From: Candidatus Desantisiibacteriota bacterium
Lineage (GTDB): Bacteria > JACRDZ01
Direction: 5' to 3'
Length of the DNA: 22,003 nt
NCBI GenBank assembly: GCA_016209155.1
Contig: JACQWU010000070.1
Coordinates: 1-22,003, forward strand
Made by a program: the position numbers and the translations under genes. The notes below the pieces were generated by a model. That model was not told where the DNA came from and ran no database searches. It was given only the letters and a program-made list of their open reading frames with translations. The stretch's first letter is position 1; the number at the start of each line of letters is the position of its first letter. This document shows, piece after piece, positions 9,190 to 21,081 of the stretch.

Positions 9190-9218
9190 ATAATATCATT
9201 CCTATTGCAAAATTGCAA
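9190..9218 (-). promoter_or_regulatory. Promoter of the DUF4143 ATPase, probably leaderless
   Basis: Read on the minus strand: TTGCAA (9218-9213), a 17-base spacer, and TATTAT (9195-9190). Transcription would begin at or within the ATG at 9183. There is no purine-rich ribosome site upstream, which fits a leaderless mRNA. Confidence 0.45.
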
Positions 9219-9293
9219 GGTAAATTTGCAGTTGGCAGTAATTCTCATTTACTTGTTATTCCGAATTATATATACAAAGCACATAAAAAGATG

Positions 9294-9482
9294 TTCAATG
9301 CTACCAATAATTCCTACTTTGAAAAAGATGAAAGGGAGATTTGAAAACAAAAAAATATTATTGGCATAGATATTGCGATTAACATTTATTAACAGGATTG
9401 TACAGGATTGAAAAATATAATACCTGAATCTTGTACGAATATATAAAAATTGTAGTAGTCTGACTTATCAGACATAATAACA
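9294..9482. repeat. Diverged direct duplication, copy A
   Basis: Two blocks, TTCAATGCTACCAATAATTC onward and ACAGGATTG through GACATAATAAC, match copy B at 9726-9924 in the same order with scattered differences. It contains the hairpin GTCTGA-CTTA-TCAGAC (9458-9473) and two CAGGATT units. No protein frame is kept. The 343 bases from 9184 to 9526 hold the ATPase promoter and this repeat; I see no gene there. Confidence 0.65.
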
Positions 9483-9526
9483 AAGTGGGATTACAAAAAA
9501 ATAAAATCAGGAATTAACCTAATTGG

Positions 9527-9676
9527 TTAAAAATATAAAATATTTTTAACTTGAAAGTGTTTGGCGGTTATTAGGTATTTCGCTTTTCCACGTATTGCAG
9601 TTTCAATAAGAATATCATCATCCGGGTCGCGACATAACTTTATATGATTTTTTAAGGTAATATGTTCTGCGCGTTT
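9527..9676 (-). pseudogene. Remnant of a PIN-domain protein (C-terminal part)
   Basis: About 48 minus-strand codons ending at TAA (9527-9529) read C-R-D-P-D-D-D-I-L-I-E-T-A, then G-K-A-K-Y-L-I-T-A. This is the hallmark C-terminal half of PIN-domain ribonucleases (the R-D-P-D-D-D stretch carries active-site acids). The N-terminal half is gone: an in-frame stop lies directly upstream and no start codon fits. It is probably a decayed toxin or PIN nuclease gene. No antitoxin remnant was recognised next to it. Confidence 0.7.
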
Positions 9677-9725
9677 TTAGTTATATTTTAATCGTAATTT
9701 AGTAAATGATATCTTTTCGAAGAAA

Positions 9726-9924
9726 TTCAATGTTACCAATAATTCCTTCTTTGAAAAGATGAAAATGAGAATTTGAAAACAAAAACGGAATTCAGGCGTT
9801 CATTCATCTGTTGTCAGTATTTAGTAAATAATAAAAATCTATTTGACAGGATTAAAAAATTAATACTCGAATTTTGTATAAATATGTGAAAATTGTAGTG
9901 GTCTGATTTATCAGACCTAATAAC
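9726..9924. repeat. Diverged direct duplication, copy B
   Basis: Matches copy A (9294-9482) in the opening block (TTCAATGTTACCAATAATTC) and in the GACAGGATT to ACCTAATAAC block. A hairpin GGTCTGA-TTTA-TCAGACC (9900-9917) is at the equivalent place. About 50 bases between the blocks differ from copy A. The two copies flank the PIN remnant, as expected if a unit was duplicated around it. Nothing else is visible between 9677 and 9992. Confidence 0.65.
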
Positions 9925-9992
9925 AATACAGGTTTGATAAATAAAAAGAGGTTAAAAGAAATGATGATGGGGTTTTCGAATTATAATTTATT

Positions 9993-10297
9993 TTATTTTT
10001 TTATTTCCATTAATGCGTGCATTATCTGGTCAAGACGGGTATGAATTTGGTCGATGCGAGAATTAATTGTTTTAAAATCTTCTTTATACTCGATTTGCAT
10101 GCGTTCAATACGTGTATTGAGAGATTTGATATCCTCTTTTAGTTCGACAGTTTTTGTGTTAACATCATTTTTTAGCTCATTAAATTTTGTGTTAACATCA
10201 TTTTTTAACTCATTAAATTTTGTGTTAACATCATTTTATAGATAAGTTCTAAGGTAACTTTTTTAACTAAATGTTTAAGAGAAGCTACTGGCGGCAT
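9993..10297 (-). pseudogene. Small coiled-coil protein gene with 11-residue repeats, frameshifted
   Basis: From ATG at 10297 (after AAAGGAG) the frame reads about 21 residues, M-P-P-V-A-S-L-K-H-L-V-K-K-V-T. Around 10232-10236 it slips by one base. The shifted frame continues for about 80 residues to TAA at 9993-9995. That part has three units of N-D-V-N-T-K-(F/T)-x-E-L-K and then further helical repeats such as I-E-R-M-Q-I and I-D-Q-I-H-T-R-L-D-Q-I. The 11-residue periodicity suggests a hendecad coiled coil. Function is unknown. The slip lies at the edge of the DNA repeat, so repeat contraction or an assembly error are both possible. Confidence 0.6.
10156..10239. repeat. 33-bp tandem repeat (2.5 copies)
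   Basis: Units at 10156-10188 and 10189-10221 differ at about one base, and a partial third unit begins at 10222. Each starts GTGTTAACATCATTTT. Each encodes one 11-residue unit of the coiled-coil protein on the minus strand. Confidence 0.85.
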
Positions 10298-10326
10298 AAT
10301 ATAAATCTCCTTTAGGATTTTTTAAT

Positions 10327-10354
10327 ATTATCTCATAAAAGTAAAAAAAGTCAA
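10327..10354 (-). promoter_or_regulatory. Promoter of the coiled-coil gene
   Basis: Read on the minus strand: TTGACT (10354-10349), a 16-base spacer, and GATAAT (10332-10327). It lies about 30 bases before the ATG at 10297, whose ribosome site AAAGGAG follows. Confidence 0.5.
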
Positions 10355-10442
10355 GAAGGTGGAGTGGAAAAAATTTTAAATTTTGAATTATTAATTTTTA
10401 ATTAGATACATTAAAAAATAATAGTAATACAGAAAAACTATT

Positions 10443-10471
10443 GACAGGATTAACAGGATTTGACAGGATTT
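10443..10471. repeat. Tandem (GA)CAGGATT units
   Basis: Three closely spaced units of the form (G)ACAGGATT with small variations. The same word occurs twice near 9391-9410 and once near 9845. It seems to be a short dispersed repeat of this genome. Confidence 0.6.
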
Positions 10472-10518
10472 AATATTGAAAAAAATAAATATATTTATTG
10501 TCTAATTAATTATATTAG

Positions 10519-10662
10519 AAAATTCTTATTTCCTCTCAGATTGCAGGGGCATTTTGTTTTACCAATAGAACTGCAATTGGGGTAATTTTCGCTGGGGTTG
10601 TTTTAGGATTTATTGGTGTTGGGATGTTAGTTGCAAAGGAACATATAATAATTATGGCATAA
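10519..10662 (+). pseudogene. Membrane-protein fragment, unrecognised
   Basis: A 47-codon frame lies between TAG (10516-10518) and TAA (10660-10662), with no usable start at its beginning. It encodes a hydrophobic stretch (A-I-G-V-I-F-A-G-V-V-L-G-F-I-G-V-G-M) flanked by charged residues, as at the end of a transporter. It may be a gene scrap or chance. I do not recognise the family. Confidence 0.3.
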
Positions 10663-10709
10663 GGAATGGGATGGAGTCAAAAGTAAACTGAAAAGACGGG
10701 GCACTGTAA

Positions 10710-10987
10710 TTACCAAATTGTTCTAATATAATTTTTACTTTGTAGTATTTCATCTTTAGATATTATTGGAACATTTAGATATTTAGCTGTTGAAGCAATT
10801 ATTTTATCGTGAAGTTCCGGAATGTCTTTTAAAAGAATCATTTTTTGAAGTATTGGGTAATCAAGAGATACAAGTTTGAAATTTTCACTGGTATTGATTT
10901 TTTGAAAATTTCAGATGCTTTAAGACTTATTTTAGGACTGTCTATGAACCACCAGATAATTGCATGGGTATCTGCTATAAAGTTCAT
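10710..10987 (-). pseudogene. vapC: VapC-like PIN-domain toxin with its middle missing
   Basis: The N-terminus from ATG at 10987 reads M-N-F-I-A-D-T-H-A-I-I-W-W, the classical VapC start with the first active-site Asp, and continues for about 30 residues. A second frame then resumes the C-terminal half: F-K-L-V-S-L-D-Y, P-E-L-H-D-K-I-I-A-S-T-A and V-P-I-I-S-K-D, ending T-I-W before the stop at 10710-10712. Compared with a usual length of about 130 residues, roughly 40 codons are absent and the total is out of frame. The missing part would include the conserved central Glu. The ATG follows the antitoxin stop by 7 bases, with GGAG before it. An RNase toxin by family; this copy should be inactive. 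Confidence 0.75.
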
Positions 10988-10994
10988 TATTTTT

Positions 10995-11213
10995 TTATAC
11001 TCCTATTTTATCATAAATATTTTTTTGAGCATTATTTATTTCCTCGTCAGTAACATCCACTCCTTTGATAATACCTTTGAGCGAAATAATTTTTTTATTT
11101 TTGGAGGGCATGTTTTTGAGAATAACTAATTTTAGATTTGACAGCTCTTTTTCAATTATTTCTATTTTATGCAATACATTAATGTTGTTTTTTTCGATTA
11201 TTTGTTGTTTCAT
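10995..11213 (-). CDS. VapB-type antitoxin
   Basis: A 72-residue protein with a mostly helical N-terminus and the C-terminal pattern I-S-L-K-G-I-I-K-G-V-D-V-T-D-E-E-I (43-59). This is typical of antitoxins paired with PIN toxins, whose C-terminus occupies the toxin active site. AAAGGAG lies before the ATG. It directly precedes the broken vapC, and this gene order supports the call. The antitoxin looks intact although its toxin does not. It lies 76 bases downstream of pheT with no clear promoter of its own, so read-through from pheST is possible. Confidence 0.75.
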   Translation of the reverse strand: MKQQIIEKNNINVLHKIEIIEKELSNLKLVILKNMPSKNKKIISLKGIIKGVDVTDEEINNAQKNIYDKIGV

Positions 11214-11228
11214 CGTTAAGCTCCTTTT

Positions 11229-11250
11229 AATAAAAGGGAAACCTTTTATT
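11229..11250 (-). terminator. AT-rich hairpin between pheT and the antitoxin gene
   Basis: AATAAAAGG, a 4-base loop, and CCTTTTATT form a perfect 9-bp stem. It is downstream of the pheT stop on the minus strand and just upstream of the antitoxin ribosome site. It could weaken pheST read-through or be an operator for the VapB-type protein. The stem is AT-rich and lacks a T-run, so the call is weak. Confidence 0.35.
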
Positions 11251-11289
11251 GCAGAAGCACAAATATTTGCCGGAGCACGGTTTAATACA

Positions 11290-13698
11290 TTATTTTCTTA
11301 ATGTTATCCCCAATTTTTGTTCCAGATTATTTAATATTTTCTGCATTATTTTATCAATTTCTTCATCTTTTAAAGTTCGGTCAAAAGAACGGAATATTAA
11401 TCTGTATCCCATGCTTTTGTACCCTGCAGGGATATTTTTACCTTTATACAAATCAAACAGTTTTATTTCTTCTATTAATTTTTTTTCACTTTCTTTTATC
11501 ACTCCAAGCAATTCTTCATGACTGATATTTTCTTTTACGATTAATGACATATCTCTCATAATGGATGGATATATGGATATTGGTTTGAAGGTTTTCTTGT
11601 CTTTTGATAGAGATGCTATTAACTTATCAATGCTTATTTCCATGGCAAATACCGGATGATCAAACTTATAATTTTCAAGAACGTCAGGATGAATCTCTCC
11701 CCCAAAACCAAGCAATATATCAGAATTTATAAGGGAGAGACATTTATTAGGATGAAAAGACGGATTTGAATATTTATCTATTTTAGATTTATCCAGATTC
11801 AGGCTGTCGGTAAGGATCTCTAAAATACCTTTTAAATCATATATGTCCGTTTCATGCAGAGTATTATCAAAACCGTATGAAAAATTACCGGTCAATAAAA
11901 TTCCTAAATATGTTTCTTCGTATGGGAGTTCAAATCCTTCTTCAGGAAGAAAAACTCTGCCTGTTTCGAATAATTTAAGATTGAAGTTCCCATGCGCAAA
12001 ATTATAACCAGCTGCATTCAAAAGGCTCGGAAGAAGAAGTGTCCTCATCAAATTTTGTTCTGGAGTTAAAGGATTTCTGATTTTTACTGCATTTCTGCGT
12101 TTGTCATCAGATGAAAGACAAATTTTGTTAAATTGTTCTTCACATACGAAACTAAAGGAAATTATTTCATTCATTCCGCATGAAACAAGAGTATTTTTTA
12201 TTTTATTTGTAATACTGACAGATAAGGGCTGCGGGGTACTGCTTATTGCAATATTCGGTGTATGTACCTTAATTTTGTCATATCCATAAATACGGGATAC
12301 TTCTTCAATTAAATCTATCTCTCGATTTATATCATGTCTGAATGATGGAATTATAAAATCGACTTCATCTTCTTTATCTTTTTTCTTTAGAATAAAATTA
12401 AGTCTTACAAGTATATTTTCAATTTCGGAAACAGGGAGCCCAGTTCCGAGAATATTATTTACTTTTTCAGGACGAAGTGTAATTATTTTATTTTTAAATT
12501 CTTTTGGATATGATTCAATCATACCTTTTGCTATTTTTCCGTCTGCCAATTTTGATATTAGCATGGATGCATATAAAGATGCATTAACCAGTCCGTTTAT
12601 ATCCGTTCCGCGCTCAAAACGATATGAGGATTCAGTTGAAAGATCAAGTTTTTTGGATGTTTTTCTTATGGATGACATATCAAAATAAGCGCTTTCAAGA
12701 ATAATAGTAGATGTATCATCTTTTATTTGAGAATTACCGCCGCCCATCACTCCCGCAAGCGCAATTGCTTTTTCTTTATCAGCAATAACAAGCATTTCAG
12801 ATGTAAGTTCTCTTTTTACTCCGTCTAAAGTTTCAAATTTTTCCCCTTGTTTTGCCTGACGTATTTTAATGGTATTTCCGCTTATAAAACGCGCATCAAA
12901 AGCGTGCAGAGGATGTCCCCATTCGATTAAAATGTAATTAGTTATATCAACTATATTATTTATACTTCTTATCCCGATAGATTGTAATCGCTGCTCAAGC
13001 CAGAAGGGAGAGGGAGATACTTTCACTCCGGTTATAACTCTTGCTGTATAACGCGGGCAGAGATAATGTGCTTCATTTTCTATGGTTACTGATATATTAA
13101 TATCCTGCGGTTCTTCGTCAATTTTGATCTCAGGAATATTAAGAGGAAGACGTAGAATACATGCTATTTCACGTGCAATACCAATTATACTTAAACAGTC
13201 GGGACGATTTGGAGTAACATTGATTTCCAGTATTGTATCCCTTAAATTCATTTCATCGATAAATATTTTTCCGATATTTACATTTTCAGGAAGAACCATT
13301 ATCCCTGAGGAAATTTCACCCAACCCCAATTCTTTTTGAGAGCATATCATTCCATGTGAATATACATCTCTGATTTTACTTTTTTTTATTTTCAGCCCGC
13401 CCGGGAGTTCAGTTCCGCATAAAGCCACCGGTACTTTTTGTCCGGCGGCTACATTTGGAGCACCGCAAACAATTTCTAAAATTTCACTGCCGGTATCAAC
13501 TTTACATAAAGACAGTTTATCCGCATTGGGATGTTTTTCAACCTGAATAACCTTCCCTACTATAACCTGCTTAATTTCATCCCCGATAGATTGCATCGAC
13601 TCGACTTCAAGACCTGCCATCGTTAAGCGGTCAGCGAGTTCATTGGGAGTTATATTAAAAGAAACATATTCTCGAAGCCAATTATAACTTGCTTTCAT
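11290..13698 (-). CDS. pheT: Phenylalanyl-tRNA synthetase beta subunit
   Basis: The 802-residue beta subunit of the alpha2-beta2 enzyme that charges tRNA-Phe. Domains in order: an OB-type tRNA-binding domain (about 40-150, with G-K-V-I-Q-V-E-K-H-P-N-A-D), the B3/B4 editing domain (about 212-385), the B5 domain (about 405-475, with D-L-I-E-E-V-S-R-I-Y-G-Y-D), the catalytic-like core, and a C-terminal FDX-ACB domain (about 708-801, with Y-P-S-I-M-R-D-M-S-L). Length and order are normal. No gap is seen, which contrasts with pheS next door. It starts 18 bases after pheS ends, with AAGGAG before its ATG, so the two form one operon. Confidence 0.97.
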   Translation of the reverse strand: MKASYNWLREYVSFNITPNELADRLTMAGLEVESMQSIGDEIKQVIVGKVIQVEKHPNADKLSLCKVDTGSEILEIVCGAPNVAAGQKVPVALCGTELPGGLKIKKSKIRDVYSHGMICSQKELGLGEISSGIMVLPENVNIGKIFIDEMNLRDTILEINVTPNRPDCLSIIGIAREIACILRLPLNIPEIKIDEEPQDINISVTIENEAHYLCPRYTARVITGVKVSPSPFWLEQRLQSIGIRSINNIVDITNYILIEWGHPLHAFDARFISGNTIKIRQAKQGEKFETLDGVKRELTSEMLVIADKEKAIALAGVMGGGNSQIKDDTSTIILESAYFDMSSIRKTSKKLDLSTESSYRFERGTDINGLVNASLYASMLISKLADGKIAKGMIESYPKEFKNKIITLRPEKVNNILGTGLPVSEIENILVRLNFILKKKDKEDEVDFIIPSFRHDINREIDLIEEVSRIYGYDKIKVHTPNIAISSTPQPLSVSITNKIKNTLVSCGMNEIISFSFVCEEQFNKICLSSDDKRRNAVKIRNPLTPEQNLMRTLLLPSLLNAAGYNFAHGNFNLKLFETGRVFLPEEGFELPYEETYLGILLTGNFSYGFDNTLHETDIYDLKGILEILTDSLNLDKSKIDKYSNPSFHPNKCLSLINSDILLGFGGEIHPDVLENYKFDHPVFAMEISIDKLIASLSKDKKTFKPISIYPSIMRDMSLIVKENISHEELLGVIKESEKKLIEEIKLFDLYKGKNIPAGYKSMGYRLIFRSFDRTLKDEEIDKIMQKILNNLEQKLGITLRK

Positions 13699-13716
13699 AA
13701 TTCTCCTTATTCTACT

Positions 13717-14556
13717 TTAAAATTGTTGTAAAAATCTTAAATCATTATCAAAAAAAAGTCTTATATCCGTAATTCCGAATTTCAGCATGGTAATTCGTTC
13801 TATCCCTATTCCGAAAGCAAAACCGGTATAGATTTCACTGTCGTATTTGACATATTTAAATACTTCAGGATCAATCATCCCGGCGCCCAGGATTTCTATC
13901 CATCCGCTATGTTTGCATACTCTGCATCCTTTTCCTCCGCATATAACACATGATATGTCTATTTCCGCGCTGGGTTCGGTAAAAGGAAAAAAACTTGGTC
14001 TGAACCGGAGCCGTGTATTTTTCCCGAAGAATTCATGAAGAAAAAGCTCAAGAACGCCTTTTAAATCCGTAAAAGAAATATTTTTATCCACCATGAACCC
14101 TTCAATCTGATGGAACATGGGAGTATGAGATACATCTGAATCACAGCGGTATACTTTACCCGGAACAATCACACGCAGGGGAGGATTTTCAATTTCCATG
14201 GTCCTCACCTGAACAGGCGATGTATGTGTACGCAGAATAATTTTATCATCCACAAAAAATGTGTCCTGCATATCTCTTGCGGGATGATCCGGCGGAAAAT
14301 TTAATGCTTCAAAATTATAATAATCAAGTTCTATCTCAGGTCCTATTTTTATTTGAAAACCGAGCCGTGTAAAAATGTCAATTGTCTCGTTTAAAACTTG
14401 CGTGATAGGATGCAGTTTCCCGGGAGGATTTTTTTTGCCGGGTAAAGTTATGTCAATTATGTCTTTAGCTAATTTACCGGCTTTTTCGCGTGATTTGATG
14501 GCTTTTCCTGTTTCATTAATTATCTCGTCAAGTTTGCCTGCGGTTTCATTTGCCAT
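13717..14556 (-). CDS. pheS: Phenylalanyl-tRNA synthetase alpha subunit, N-terminus disrupted
   Basis: The catalytic alpha subunit. The 279-codon frame covers the end of the N-terminal helical arm and the whole class II core. It includes [21 protein letters not shown] and F-H-Q-I-E-G-F (motif 2). A Cys cluster ([12 protein letters not shown]) and motif 3, [10 protein letters not shown], follow. Usual length is about 340. The ATG at 14556 is probably not the true start: it has no ribosome site, and matching coding continues upstream to a stop at 14575-14577. The real N-terminus lies at 14567-14659 in another frame, with about 25 codons missing between. As written, the protein would lack most of the tRNA-binding arm. 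Confidence 0.9.
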
Positions 14557-14566
14557 TTTCCCGGTT

Positions 14567-14659
14567 TCACGTCTTTATTTTATCAAGTTCATCACTATTT
14601 TTACAATTAGCGCATGCTTCTATACATTCTTTAATTATTTCATCAGATTTTATATCCAT
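14567..14659 (-). pseudogene. pheS: Detached N-terminal piece of pheS
   Basis: Thirty codons from ATG at 14659, with GGGAG upstream, read M-D-I-K-S-D-E-I-I-K...S-D-E-L-D-K-I-K-T and then stop at TGA (14569-14567). The acidic helical pattern and the E-L-D-K-I-K phrase match the first helix of PheS, where E-L-E-x-I-R-x-x-Y-L-G-K-K is normal. The Y-L-G-K-K-G segment that should follow is absent, and the main pheS frame starts at once in another phase. It lies directly downstream of a good promoter, so this is the natural translation start of pheS. Confidence 0.7.
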
Positions 14660-14741
14660 ATAAAATATTCTCCCGAAGCTAAATTTATTTTGATAATAGA
14701 TAAAAGAAGTCTTTGTTGTTTGAAATTAAAAAATAATGTAT

Positions 14742-14770
14742 ATAATAATTAATTATAGATAATTTGTCAA
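14742..14770 (-). promoter_or_regulatory. Promoter of pheST
   Basis: Read on the minus strand: perfect TTGACA (14770-14765), a 17-base spacer, and TATTAT (14747-14742). It leaves a leader of about 75 bases before the ATG at 14659. I found no T-box specifier or phenylalanine-rich leader peptide in that leader. Confidence 0.65.
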
Positions 14771-14938
14771 TACATCTTCAGTCCCATCTTTATTTTATTA
14801 AGTATCACAGATTCACACTCCTGGAATACTCCGGTTCCATGAACCATGATGATATTTCTGCTTTTTTCTGCTTTTTTTCCACAAGGGAAAAAGTCAGTAA
14901 AATGTGGAATTTGCCAATTAACATTTATATGTTTTCAT
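14767..14938 (-). pseudogene. Small unrecognised reading frame, apparently frameshifted
   Basis: ATG at 14938 reads M-K-T-Y-K-C and then a stop. An overlapping frame shifted by one base continues W-Q-I-P-H-F-T-D-F-F-P-C-G-K-K-A-E...M-V-H-G-T-G-V-F-Q-E-C-E to TGA at 14767-14769. The pieces together would make a protein of about 57 residues with several cysteines. I do not recognise it. The stop overlaps the pheST -35 box, so the gene would end inside the promoter. No ribosome site precedes the ATG. It may be a decayed small gene or chance. Confidence 0.3.
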
Positions 14939-14965
14939 GTCAAACTAATTCTAATTATAGAATTT

Positions 14966-14994
14966 AGGAAATATTAATATCAGGAAATATTAAT
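14966..14994 (+). repeat. Duplicated 13-base AGGAAATATTAAT with a 16-base period
   Basis: Two exact copies, at 14966-14978 and 14982-14994, lie directly before the ATG at 14997. Both contain the purine-rich AGGAAA; the second is at a usable distance from the start, so the ribosome-site region has been duplicated. Confidence 0.75.
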
Positions 14995-14996
14995 AA

Positions 14997-15554
14997 ATGA
15001 ATATTAAAAAAAAATCAACAATTATAAAAAAAAGAAAAATACTTTCATGTCAAAAAGGATTACTTCTATGGTTCACCGGACTTCAAGGTGCAGGAAAATC
15101 AACATTAGCACATCGATTAGAAATCGAACTTCATAATAAAGGTTATTTAACAACTATTATTAATGAAAATAATTTGAAAAATCTGGGGCTTACCACTGAA
15201 TTCAATACTGAAAATATTAAAAAAATAGGAGAAATTGCTAAACTTTTTGTAGATAGAGAAATAATAACAATATCAACATTTATTTCTCCATATAAGAATG
15301 ATCGTGAAAAAATACGTAATCTTTTCAAGAATAGTGATTTCATGGAAATATATGTAAAATGTTCATTCGAAATATTAAAAAGCCGAGAAGAAAAAGGATT
15401 ATTTAAAAAAATCAACACAAATGAATTTTATAATTTTTCAGCACGTTATGAGGAGCCGGTCAATCCTGAAATTACATTAAACACATCAATACTTACAATA
15501 GAAGAATGCTTAAAAATTTTACTGATTTATCTTGAAAAAAAGGGAGTTGAATAA
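14997..15554 (+). CDS. Divergent adenylylsulfate (APS) kinase-like protein
   Basis: 185 residues with the APS-kinase P-loop context W-F-T-G-L-Q-G-A-G-K-S-T (25-36). It then shows I-G-E-I-A-K-L-F-V-D (77-86), F-I-S-P-Y-K-N-D-R-E (95-104), E-K-G-L-F-K-K-I (132-139) and Y-E-E-P-V-N-P (151-157). These follow CysC order, so the fold is clear. The acceptor site is eroded: the D-G-D motif is N-E-N (57-59), and the L-G-F-S-x-x-D-R stretch is shortened to T-T-E-F-N-T-E-N. It may phosphorylate something other than APS, or nothing. No sulfate-assimilation partner (CysD, CysN or reductase) is nearby. It stands alone, divergent from the pheST promoter. Confidence 0.75.
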   Translation: MNIKKKSTIIKKRKILSCQKGLLLWFTGLQGAGKSTLAHRLEIELHNKGYLTTIINENNLKNLGLTTEFNTENIKKIGEIAKLFVDREIITISTFISPYKNDREKIRNLFKNSDFMEIYVKCSFEILKSREEKGLFKKINTNEFYNFSARYEEPVNPEITLNTSILTIEECLKILLIYLEKKGVE

Positions 15555-15678
15555 AATACCTGTCCATTACGATTTTGATTCAGAGCGATTTTATTCGACC
15601 AGTAAAATAAAACATTTATCATTTCAAACTTTTTTATGAATCCTACCAACCCGGGTAATCCATGACCAAAAAAAATAA

Positions 15679-15706
15679 TTGACAATCATAATAAAATAAG
15701 TATACT
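15679..15706 (+). promoter_or_regulatory. Promoter of the secD-secF operon
   Basis: TTGACA (15679-15684, perfect), a 16-base spacer, and TATACT (15701-15706). A leader of about 45 bases follows, with AAGGAAAGGA before the secD ATG at 15758. The remaining bases between 15555 and 15678 show no gene. Confidence 0.7.
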
Positions 15707-15757
15707 AAACACTTTAGGTTAATATTTATTTAACGTATTTTTAAGGAAAGGAATATT

Positions 15758-16867
15758 ATGGCATTAGATAGAAACAAAAGAAAGTGGCGCAGAATTAGTA
15801 TTATAGCTATAACTGTTATTTCTCTTATTGCTCTTTTACCTACTTTTGGGATTGTGACTCCAGGCTTGTGGCAAAAGGTTTTTCCTGAAAATAAAATTTC
15901 ATTGGGACTTGATCTTCAGGGTGGAATGCATGTTGCCTTGCAAGTGGAAACCGATAAATTACCTAAGGAAGCAAATAAGGATGAGGCAGTAAATGTTGTT
16001 CTGGAAGTTTTACGAAAACGTGTTGATGAATTTGGAGTATCCGAACCAATAATACAGAGAGAAGGTCTGGATAGAATAATAATACAGCTTCCCGGTATAA
16101 AAGATTCTGAAAGAGCTCTGGCTCTTATTGGCAGGACTGCTCATCTTGAATTCAGACTTGTAGCTGAAGACGGTAAACTGGAAGAGGCATTAAAAGGAAA
16201 TGTTCCGGAAGGGGAAGAAGTCGTAAATATGAAAACAACAGCATCATCAGGCAAAGTTTCATCTCAACCGTTTCTTCTGAAAAAAGAAGCAAAGGTTACC
16301 GGTGCTGATTTAATAAATGCTAATGTTCAAATCGGCGGTGAATGGAATGAGCCCTATGTTCAGCTTGAATTTAATGACGAAGGCGCTAAAAAGTTTGGAG
16401 TCTTAACAAGTGATAACATAGGTAAGAGACTCGCAATAGTATTAGATGGTATTGTCCATTCTGCTCCGAACATAAGAGAACGAATTCCAAACGGCAAAGC
16501 CCAAATTTCAGGATCATTTACTATGGAAGAGGCAAAAGACCTTGCTATAGTCCTACGAGCCGGAGCTTTACCGGCTCCTGTAACTATTGCTGAAACACGC
16601 ATGGTTGGACCTTCTCTTGGAAGAGATTCAATCCGCAAAGGGATTATGGCAAGTATAGTCGGGCTTGTTTTAGTACTGCTTTTTATGATTATGTATTATA
16701 AAGGATCGGGATTTATTGCTTTAACCGCACTTGTTTTAAATATTATAATTTTGCTTGCCAGTATGTCAATTTTTAAAGCCACCCTCTGCGGGCAGGGAAA
16801 ACAATTCATACATGTGTTGATAATGGCTATGATAAAGCTTTTAGCAGTATCTTTGACTCTAATCTGA
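15758..16867 (+). CDS. secD: Protein translocase subunit SecD, frame broken near residue 342
   Basis: SecD works with SecF in the inner membrane and uses the proton gradient to pull proteins through SecYEG. Residues 1-342 are authentic: TM1 (12-30), the L-G-L-D-L-Q-G-G motif (49-56), the P1 periplasmic region, V-L-D-G-x-V-x-S-A-P, L-R-A-G-A-L-P-A-P-V and the next TM helices to S-I-F-K-A-T-L. The last 27 residues (343-369) are out of frame and unrelated to SecD. The true C-terminal part resumes at 16786 in another frame. About 29 codons, covering the A-V-D-A-N-V-L-I and E-R-I-R-E-E segment, are absent at the joint (16784-16786). As written, the protein should not work as a proton-driven SecD. 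Confidence 0.93.
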   Translation: MALDRNKRKWRRISIIAITVISLIALLPTFGIVTPGLWQKVFPENKISLGLDLQGGMHVALQVETDKLPKEANKDEAVNVVLEVLRKRVDEFGVSEPIIQREGLDRIIIQLPGIKDSERALALIGRTAHLEFRLVAEDGKLEEALKGNVPEGEEVVNMKTTASSGKVSSQPFLLKKEAKVTGADLINANVQIGGEWNEPYVQLEFNDEGAKKFGVLTSDNIGKRLAIVLDGIVHSAPNIRERIPNGKAQISGSFTMEEAKDLAIVLRAGALPAPVTIAETRMVGPSLGRDSIRKGIMASIVGLVLVLLFMIMYYKGSGFIALTALVLNIIILLASMSIFKATLCGQGKQFIHVLIMAMIKLLAVSLTLI

Positions 16868-17037
16868 CTACACTCATAACTGCCATTGCATTATATATTT
16901 TCGGCACAGGTCCTGTAAAAGGTTTTGCAGTAACCCTATCATTAGGTATTGTAATCAGTATGTATACGGCAATACTTGTAACAAGAGAAATTTACGATAC
17001 TCTGCTTGATTCAGGGATGAAACACATAAGTATTTAA
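16786..17037 (+). pseudogene. secD: Detached C-terminal part of secD
   Basis: From CTG at 16786 a frame of 83 codons reads L-R-A-G-K-T-I and G-Y-D-K-A-F-S-S-I-F-D-S-N-L-T-T-L. It then reads G-T-G-P-V-K-G-F-A-V-T-L-S-L-G-I and ends at TAA (17035-17037). This is the standard end of SecD, with the last two membrane helices. It has no start of its own and overlaps the out-of-frame tail of the upstream piece. Adding 88 bases at the joint would restore a frame of about 455 residues, a normal size for a short SecD. Confidence 0.85.
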
Positions 17038-17122
17038 AAGTTTGTGTTGACAGCAATAAAGGTTGGATAGCTGTTTAATTAACTATCAGGATAAATTAAT
17101 AATCGTATAGAAAGGAAAAAAT

Positions 17123-17829
17123 ATGGAATTTTTTCATGGAACTAGTTTTGATTTTATGAAATTCAGTCAAAGTTGATGAGATAAGAAATGTCTTATCCAA
17201 AATAAATTTAGGTGATAGTGTAATTCAACAATATGGCGCGGAAAACGAAATTCTTATTCGTGCGCGGAATAAATCAGAAAAAGAAGGCAATAAAATAGAT
17301 AAAGTAATTGAAAAAGCCTTAAAAGATAATTTTAATAATATTAATCCTATTCAAGTTCAGAGAACTGAATATGTCGGTCCAATTGCAGGAAAAAAACTTA
17401 CCAGTGATACTATAATGGCAGTTTTATTATCAATGGTAGGAATCCTTATATATGTAACATGGCGTTTTGAATTTAAGTATTCGCTTGGAGGTGTGATGGC
17501 GCTTTTTCATGATGTTTTGATTACCCTGGGATTTTTTTCTATTCTTAACAGAGAAATAAGCATTCAAGTGGTTGCGGCGATTTTAACACTTGTCGGTTAT
17601 TCAATCTGATATAATTAATGTCAGTATAAATAACACTCTTGGCAGAACAGTAAATACTTCTTTGACAACCCTATTATCTGTTGTTGCTTTATTTGTTTTC
17701 GGAGGTGAAGTGCTAAGAGATTTTTCGCTTGCGCTTTTAATAGGGATTATCACAGGAACATATTCTTCAATTTATATTGCTTCTCCTATTTTAATAGACT
17801 GGGAAAATTTTTTCGAAAAGAAGAAATAA
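17123..17829 (+). pseudogene. secF: Protein translocase subunit SecF, broken in two places
   Basis: Three frames are needed. Piece 1, from ATG at 17123 after AAAGGA, reads M-E-F-F-H-G-T-S-F-D-F-M-K-F and hits TGA at 17174. Piece 2 (from about 17166 to 17606) reads V-K-V-D-E-I-R-N-V-L-S, V-G-P-I-A-G-K-K-L, W-R-F-E-F-K-Y and L-T-L-V-G-Y-S-I. Piece 3 (from 17605 to the stop at 17829) reads D-I-I-N-V-S-I-N-N-T-L-G-R-T, L-T-T-L-L and I-G-I-I-T-G-T-Y-S-S-I. Missing at the first joint are TM1 and the G-I-D-F-T-G-G motif (about 45 codons). Missing at the second is N-D-T-I-V-V-F-D-R-I-R-E-N (about 20-25 codons). Both losses are out of frame. Confidence 0.85.
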
Positions 17830-17865
17830 TTTTGATCTTTGAAAGGTTTAAACAAAAATATAAAT

Positions 17866-19185
17866 ATGGCAAAAATACGTCCATTTACTGGAATAAGATA
17901 TAATCTTAATTTAATTACGGATATTTCTTTAGTTACATCTCCACCCTATGATGTGATTTCACATCATGATCAAAAGATGTATTATGAAAAACATGAAAAT
18001 AATATTATACGCTTGATACTTGGTCTCGAATATCCGGGGGATAATGAGACAGGCAATAAATACACACGGGCAAAAAATTATTTTAAAGATTGGCAGAAAA
18101 AAGATATCCTTATTTCTGATGATACTCCTTCAATCTATTTATATTCTCAGGAATTTACACTGAAAGGACATAAAGAAGCGCAAATACTTCATGGATTCAT
18201 TTGTCTCGTTAAACTGGAAGACTTTTCATCCGGTATTATTTGTCCTCATGAACAGACTCTTTCCGCTCCTAAAAAAGATCGTTTTGAGCTTATGCGTAAT
18301 TGTGAAGCAAATTTCAGCCAAATATATGGATTATATTCCGATAAAAAATTCCAAATCGAGAAATTTCTAAATCCTATATTTAAAACTCCTCCGCTCATAA
18401 AAACACCGGATAAAGATGGAGTAAAAAATGAACTCTGGAAAGTATCAGATATAGATGTTATTAATCAGATTACAACTCTTATGAAAGATAAAGTTATTGT
18501 GATTGGCGACGGACATCATCGTTATGAAACAGCGCTTAATTATAAAAACGAGAGAAAAAATAATAATCCTTCTCATACAGGGCAGGAACCCTATAATTAT
18601 GTTATGTTTATGCTGGTCAACGCTGAGGATCCAGGATTAACTATATTGCCGACACACCGTCTGCTTCACAACTTATCTGATTTGAATATGAAAAGTCTTA
18701 TGAATCAGATATCCGAATATTTTGAAATTACAAAATTGGATTATGATATTGAGAGTGAAATTACAATTTCAAGAAAGATGGTGGAAATTGGTAAAACAAA
18801 GCATGCATTTTGTCTGTATGCAGGAAAAGATGATTACTACTTATTAGTTTTAAAAGATGAAAAAGCGATTGAACGTTATACAGATAAATCCAAATCAGAT
18901 GTCTGGCAAAAATTAGATGTTGCTATTTTGCACAATTTTATTATAGAGCAATTTTTGGATATTGGTCATCATCATTTAAAAGATGGTAAACATATTGTAT
19001 ATAACCATAATTTTAATGATTGCATAGAGAGAGTTAATAAAGGAGAATTCCAGCTTGCTTTATTCCTTAATCCTACTCACCCGGATGAAGTAATGGAAAT
19101 TTCAGGACAAGGTGAATTAATGCCGCAAAAATCCACATATTTTTATCCTAAACTTTTAACAGGATTAGTTATTAATAAGCTATAA
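17866..19185 (+). CDS. DUF1015-family protein
   Basis: 439 residues from ATG at 17866, where M-A-K-I-R-P-F-T-G-I-R-Y matches the family's usual start. A TTG at 17839 would add nine unmatched residues. Family marks are S-P-P-Y-D-V-I (25-31), P-H-E-Q-T (127-131) and G-D-G-H-H-R-Y-E-T-A (214-223). The last looks like a metal or phosphate-handling site. DUF1015 proteins are cytoplasmic and widespread, with no firmly known reaction. The ribosome site is poor: AAAGG lies about 20 bases upstream. It follows secF by 36 bases and precedes the WD40-like gene by 24, so it could belong to a secDF transcript. It is intact. Confidence 0.88.
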   Translation: MAKIRPFTGIRYNLNLITDISLVTSPPYDVISHHDQKMYYEKHENNIIRLILGLEYPGDNETGNKYTRAKNYFKDWQKKDILISDDTPSIYLYSQEFTLKGHKEAQILHGFICLVKLEDFSSGIICPHEQTLSAPKKDRFELMRNCEANFSQIYGLYSDKKFQIEKFLNPIFKTPPLIKTPDKDGVKNELWKVSDIDVINQITTLMKDKVIVIGDGHHRYETALNYKNERKNNNPSHTGQEPYNYVMFMLVNAEDPGLTILPTHRLLHNLSDLNMKSLMNQISEYFEITKLDYDIESEITISRKMVEIGKTKHAFCLYAGKDDYYLLVLKDEKAIERYTDKSKSDVWQKLDVAILHNFIIEQFLDIGHHHLKDGKHIVYNHNFNDCIERVNKGEFQLALFLNPTHPDEVMEISGQGELMPQKSTYFYPKLLTGLVINKL

Positions 19186-19209
19186 AAAATAAAATGATTG
19201 AGGAACAAA

Positions 19210-21081
19210 ATGTTTAGTATAAAGATTAAATTTATATTATCATTTATAGCTATATTTTTTATTTTTAAAATAATAACAATCTATGGTACAAATGAAAATC
19301 AAAAAACCTCAGAATCAGAAAAATTCATAGTTAAAATAGATATTTCCTCATGGATACAAAATAGTCTTAAATTTAGCTTTGACAGCAAACACGCAGTTTA
19401 CGCGGCTAAAAAAGGGAATAAATGGTTTGTTATAATTGATGGAATAAAGGAGAATAAATACGACGGAATTTTGTCGGATACCCCTATTTTCAGCCCCGAT
19501 AGTAAATCTATAGCATATGCGGCGCAAAAAAATAGTAAATGGATCGTAGTAGTTGATGGAAAAGAAGGTAAGGAATATGATGGCATAGGTTCTATCCCTG
19601 TTTTTAGTCCTGATAGTAAACGTGTTGCCTATACTGCAAGGCAGGGCAATAAATGGTTTGCAGTCATTGATAATAAAGAAGATAAATATTATGATGGTAT
19701 AGTATGTAGTCCTATTTTTAGTCGCAATAGCAAAAGAATTGCCTATACCGCTGTGATAGATAATAAACAATTTATTGTTACAGAAAGCGGAGAAAAAATT
19801 AAATATGATGGTGTCGGATGCATACCTTTTTTTAGCCGGGACAATAATAATATAGAGCCCCTGTACCGGGATGATAATCTGAAAAATCAGTTTGTATTAA
19901 CAGATTTAAAAAGGCTGGAACTCTACGATGGGATAACCTCCGGCACTCCGGTCTTTGGGCCTGATACAAGACGCGCGGCTTATATTTACATTTCCGGTCA
20001 ATTTAAAAAACGATTTGTTAATATGTATAAAAAGGAAAATGTTACATGGTCAGGGGACCCTGTTTTTAGTCCGGATAGCAAACAGTTAATATATACAGCC
20101 AGAGTAGGGGATAAATGGTTTGTTGTTATAAATGACAAAGAAGAAAAAAAGTATGATCAAATCACTTCAGGCAAAATTCTTTTTGATCCTGATATTAAGC
20201 TGATAGCTTATTCATCAGGTCAATATAAAAAACGGTTTTTAGTTGTAGACGGGAAAAATGAAAATGAATATCCGGGTATTGTGCCCGGAAATCTTATATT
20301 TAGTCCTGCAGGCTCGGGAATTGCATATACTGCAAAGAATGGGAATAAATGGTGTGTTGTTATTGATGGAAAAGAAGAAAAATATTACGATGGTATTATT
20401 GCAAAGAATTTGATATTCAGCCCTAATAATAAATATATAGCTTATGGAGTAAGAGAAGGTAATAAATACAGCATGGTTATAGACGGTAAAGAAGGGGAAT
20501 ACTATGATGACATTATGGCAGGTACTCCAATTATAAGTTCTGATGGACTCAGAATAGCCTATATAGCAAAAAAAGGCAGTAAATGGTTTGTTGTTATAAA
20601 TGGCAAAAAAGAAAAAGAATATAATGCTGTCGGAGCCGGCACTTTAATTTTTAGCCCTGACAGCAGGCATTTAGTATATGCGGCAAGAAAAGATGATAAG
20701 TGGTTTATTGTTAAAGACGGGATAGAGGAAAAAAAATATGATGAAATTGTTGCGGATACAATTGTTTTCAGCCCTGACAGCATGAAATTTGCATATGCGG
20801 CAAGATCGGGAGTTAAATGGCTGGTGAACAATAGCGGTAAGGAAGAAGAAAAATATTATAATTGCATTATGGCAGAAAATCTAATTTTTAGCCCCGATAG
20901 CAGACATCTTGTATATGCTGCGCAGGGAATCAGGGGTAAGTGGTTTGTGATTGCTGATGGTAAAGAAAAAAAAGAATATAGCGAAATAATAACCAGAATA
21001 ATTTTTGATTCTGATACCTGCTTCCATTACCTTGCAGGACAGGATAATTCAATTTATCTGGTGGAAGAAAAAATAGATTAA
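19210..21081 (+). CDS. Secreted WD40-like beta-propeller repeat protein (about 14 blades)
   Basis: 623 residues starting with a hydrophobic signal segment (about 5-23). The rest is a tandem array of about 14 blades plus a partial fifteenth, each of about 37-40 residues. The consensus is (P/L)-I-F-S-P-D-S-K-x-I-A-Y-A-A, then G-N-K-W-F-V-V-x-D-G-K-E, then K-Y-D-G-I. Blades 4-6 and 8 are the most worn. Fourteen blades would suit two seven-blade propellers, but this is inference. Such proteins are surface or periplasmic, with binding rather than catalytic roles. The ATG at 19210 is chosen because GAGGA lies five bases upstream. Its TAA stop overlaps the stop of the convergent PD40 gene. Confidence 0.85.
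   Translation: MFSIKIKFILSFIAIFFIFKIITIYGTNENQKTSESEKFIVKIDISSWIQNSLKFSFDSKHAVYAAKKGNKWFVIIDGIKENKYDGILSDTPIFSPDSKSIAYAAQKNSKWIVVVDGKEGKEYDGIGSIPVFSPDSKRVAYTARQGNKWFAVIDNKEDKYYDGIVCSPIFSRNSKRIAYTAVIDNKQFIVTESGEKIKYDGVGCIPFFSRDNNNIEPLYRDDNLKNQFVLTDLKRLELYDGITSGTPVFGPDTRRAAYIYISGQFKKRFVNMYKKENVTWSGDPVFSPDSKQLIYTARVGDKWFVVINDKEEKKYDQITSGKILFDPDIKLIAYSSGQYKKRFLVVDGKNENEYPGIVPGNLIFSPAGSGIAYTAKNGNKWCVVIDGKEEKYYDGIIAKNLIFSPNNKYIAYGVREGNKYSMVIDGKEGEYYDDIMAGTPIISSDGLRIAYIAKKGSKWFVVINGKKEKEYNAVGAGTLIFSPDSRHLVYAARKDDKWFIVKDGIEEKKYDEIVADTIVFSPDSMKFAYAARSGVKWLVNNSGKEEEKYYNCIMAENLIFSPDSRHLVYAAQGIRGKWFVIADGKEKKEYSEIITRIIFDSDTCFHYLAGQDNSIYLVEEKID

Follow-up and report, generated by a model that had tools for sequence, protein, structure and literature searches.

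The window analysed here is a whole contig of 22,003 nt, containing no N, from a draft genome bin (352 contigs, 3.08 Mb in all) with 78.8% completeness and 2.3% contamination. The nearest relatives found for this contig share its phylum only, with SecD protein identity to the nearest same-phylum genomes at about 50% and a best pheT identity of 44% or less in a scan of species genomes; none of the genomes compared was close enough for the joints described below to be compared base by base. The genes on which the analysis turns are as follows:

10713-10987, minus strand: vapC-like PIN gene in two frames (N-terminal piece 10898-10987, C-terminal piece 10713-10910)
11290-13698, minus strand: pheT, intact, 802 aa, lying between broken genes, with five Pfam domains over its full length
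13717-14659, minus strand: pheS in two frames, joint at about 14573, about 24 codons absent (VkYLGKKGelTqvLrgMGkLskEE in relatives)
15758-17038, plus strand: secD in two frames, joint at about 16783-16786, about 28 codons absent (TLPGIAGiiLTiGMAVDANVliFERIRE in relatives)
17123-17606, plus strand: secF across its first joint, at about 17165, about 46 codons absent, including GIDFtGG
17163-17829, plus strand: secF across its second joint, at about 17606, about 23 codons absent (NDTIVVfDRIREnlrlrrgktlr in relatives)

Between pheS and secD lies an APS-kinase-like gene (14997-15554, plus strand; PF01583, E=1.6e-36) of low GC, about 26%. Elsewhere in the contig, an AT-rich intergenic element is present as two imperfect direct copies (9288-9504 and 9720-9947, 77-80% identical) about 432-443 nt apart, which carry a short palindrome (GTCTGACTTATCAGAC), and three tandem 33-nt units lie at 10126-10241 within an apparent short degenerate reading frame. 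The plus-strand gene at 19198-21081 encodes a 627-aa protein in which a unit of the type FSPDSKRIAYTAKKGNKWFVVIDGKEEKKYDGI recurs some twelve times, by eye a beta-propeller-like pattern.

An ab initio frame model that used no homology and learned from long open reading frames of the same genome placed frame switches at 14574 on the minus strand and at 16783, 17169 and 17606 on the plus strand, the same places at which a sequence-only reading of this DNA had set its joints in pheS, secD and secF. Missing lengths were measured by comparison with the full-length proteins of relatives and came to 24 codons in pheS, 28 in secD, 46 at the first secF joint and 23 at the second, such that the earlier estimate of 20-50 lost codons proved accurate and each joint is without about 70-140 nt. 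Coding is intact to either side of each joint, and the segment that relatives carry there is lost at one sharp break. The joints carry no filler or IS end, as had been noted, and no N either. Both secD pieces align with SecD of relatives, the first ending at residue 344 and the second starting at 374. The N-terminal piece of secF, just 14-16 aa long, still has a clear match (E=0.012, with 71% identity over 14 aa), and the piece downstream of the first joint aligns with relatives from residue 61-65, while the second joint separates TIGR00966 positions 50-191 from 214-279 and PF02355 positions 4-98 from 121-187. For PheS, the core domain is matched at E=2e-101 and the short N-terminal piece of 29 aa is without a clear match. 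The secD and secF joints are flanked by good coding sequence, about 41-66% identical to the SecD and SecF of relatives, and the pheS joint by sequence about 60% identical to their PheS. All domains of pheT are present, in agreement with the earlier description of this gene as intact inside the region.

A fifth joint had been proposed near 10900 in the vapC-like gene, the middle of which is probably missing. The N-terminal frame reads MNFIADTHAIIWWFIDSP... and alone is without a Pfam match, and the C-terminal piece corresponds to the PIN C-terminus (PF01850 positions 64-115) at only E=0.03. This joint shares the two-frame layout of the others, but its family match is weak, leaving it the weakest of the five. 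A 49-aa remnant at 9530-9676 on the minus strand, whose sole match is to the final part of a PIN_3 domain (PF13470 positions 84-111, E=1.4e-5), is probably a second, truncated toxin-like gene.

PheS, SecD, SecF and AccA are normally essential, and the sequence-only reading had offered intact second copies elsewhere as one option. The bin was searched for intact pheS, secD and secF as that reading had advised: no other match to PF02912 or PF01409 is present in the 3.08 Mb, and a SecD/SecF domain search of the same bin found no second secDF. A search for the segments lost from secDF and pheS likewise found them nowhere in the bin, which lacks roughly a fifth of the genome. That absent fifth is where intact copies would have to reside if the broken genes were dispensable duplicates, an explanation we regard as extremely unlikely given that no second pheS or secDF was found in the bin and that such duplicates would be required for many unrelated genes.

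The frame model was then applied to contigs C1-C81, which amount to 728 kb once three all-N contigs (L156/C46, L165/C55 and L179/C69) are left out of the statistics. It called 195 frame changes, divided into 116 overlap-like changes, 10 at N gaps and 69 unexplained breaks, these classes being rough, as two of the four true joints of the present contig were counted among the overlaps. The same treatment of two genomes of this phylum yielded 14 breaks each, in 400 kb and 215 kb respectively (28 in 615 kb), an excess for the genome studied here of p=0.0007, or p=0.005 for the strict class (24 v 6). One of these genomes, G001, also shows some break calls, and part of the background is therefore noise of the frame model. 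Family searches on both halves of each broken gene found the halves to match one family, with an internal part of the profile missing, as listed below (for RadC the search gives the start of the domain):

mfd (joint at C77:7381): profile gap 368 to 425
PMR1-type Ca-ATPase: profile gap 585 to 647
porA (joint at C50:3632): profile gap 108 to 158
accA (joint at C51:5065): profile gap 142 to 171
nifD: profile gap 84 to 156
capD-like Polysacc_synt_2: profile gap 74 to 126
alpha/beta hydrolase: profile gap 48 to 185
RadC domain: begins at profile position 52
pyruvate phosphate dikinase: profile gap 528 to 651
mutL: internal part missing
periplasmic binding protein: profile gap 33 to 90

In accA, mfd, porA, capD, nifD, the Ca-ATPase and pyruvate phosphate dikinase, about 26-120 positions are absent at the joint, and at nine joints measured against relatives 23-52 codons are lost. 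The frames of secD, accA, mfd, capD and porA are open in relatives, and joints recur at unrelated genes throughout the assembly. The present contig, with four joints in 22 kb, lies moderately above the rest of the genome (Poisson p ~0.02 for a contig chosen as striking); the earlier description of a local cluster is incomplete, as similar breaks occur genome-wide. Real gene decay, in which the broken genes would be pseudogenes of the lineage whose deletions had gone to fixation in its population, is very unlikely on this evidence. Small deletions do leave frame shifts without filler, and the small PIN fragment at 9530-9676 does look like a remnant; decay would nevertheless have to strike the normally essential pheS, secD, secF and accA with no other pheS or secDF copy found, to do so at many places at once, and to leave the flanking coding sequence without other damage.

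The assembly itself provides a second line of evidence. Its contigs are scaffolded, the N runs in it measure 8-106 nt, which overlaps the lengths lost at the joints, and 4 of 19 N runs are bordered directly by exact duplicates of 10-23 nt on both sides:

L139 (C29), 2303: N run with duplicated ends
L147 (C37), 825: N run with duplicated ends
L122 (C11), 3102: N run with duplicated ends
L131 (C20), 1769: N run with duplicated ends

These ends probably overlap, yet 11-106 Ns were inserted between them, which makes the gap sizes of this assembly unreliable. The error seen directly is Ns between overlapping ends, the opposite of joints that delete sequence and contain no N; an error of the reverse kind would turn a real gap of 70-150 nt into none, and this is how the joints look.

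Which stretches were lost bears on a further explanation, namely a genuine process that cuts short conserved segments out of genes, or one in which segments are kept apart and rejoined at the RNA level. Several of the lost pieces hold signature motifs, by eye TFIDTPGAyPG (AccA), HAAAhKHVPLMEeNP (CapD) and GIDFtGG (SecF), and the losses fall in the fairly narrow range of 23-52 codons, both of which would suit excision. When nine joints were compared with all equal-length windows of the same gene, the striking impression of a specific loss of conserved motifs weakened to a slight lean towards conserved sequence (combined p=0.016), with only secD (0.002) and porA (0.037) individually below 0.05. 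Moreover, the missing secDF and pheS segments were not found in the bin, misestimated gaps are demonstrated in the same assembly, and a repeat search of 9200-18000, with joint boundaries placed approximately, gave only short AT-rich matches, among which no repeat family or hairpin common to the joints was seen. Segment excision, which had been left as an option from the sequence, is consequently assigned almost no probability, and we give as little to a process of this uncultured lineage that would strip a large part of its population of short stretches in conserved genes while intact forms persist elsewhere.

We propose that the joints are very probably errors of assembly, made in scaffold joining within a metagenome bin, and that the cells' own genes are intact. 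Two features argue for such an error: essential genes are broken without a second copy in the bin, and the scaffolding of the assembly, with its N runs of 8-106 nt, has gap sizes that are wrong. Under this model assembly would fail over some 70-150 nt, in places over a longer stretch, the flanking contigs would be set side by side with the gap underestimated or non-positive, and no Ns would be written; the joints without N would then be products of the same scaffolding step that made the N runs. The unassembled stretches may have been poorly covered, or may have been conserved sequence common to co-occurring relatives. A link of the lost stretches to conserved sequence of co-occurring organisms is possible, and poor coverage would explain them equally well. 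Assembly collapse, the option preferred from the start, is supported by the genome-wide recurrence of the joints, the open genes of relatives and the unreliable gap sizes; what does not stand is its limitation to 9.5-17.8 kb, as the breaks are spread over the draft genome. The consequence is a warning of quality: conserved genes here, and in drafts scaffolded alike, can lack short internal pieces that no N marks, and joins of this kind look like pseudogenes, frameshifts or gene fission, and estimates of completeness may come out too low because of them.

Two known systems invite comparison. Programmed frameshifting and translational bypassing resemble these joints in that coding continues in another frame, but they keep the coding content complete, whereas here 23-52 codons of relatives are absent. 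They cannot supply missing codons, of which 23-46 are absent at the measured joints of this contig; like decay and segment excision, they are far less likely than assembly error. The second system is the errors of metagenome-assembled genomes treated by Chen et al. 2020 (PMC7111523), passages of which describe superfluous Ns between overlapping ends for IDBA-UD and CLC scaffolds and suspect local assembly errors to be prominent in IDBA-UD. The likeness lies in a draft scaffolded bin with unreliable gap sizes and Ns between overlapping ends, and in protein-coding genes left incomplete or incorrect. The difference is that those passages concern unsupported consensus and superfluous Ns, whereas the joints of the present contig are without Ns and lack sequence.
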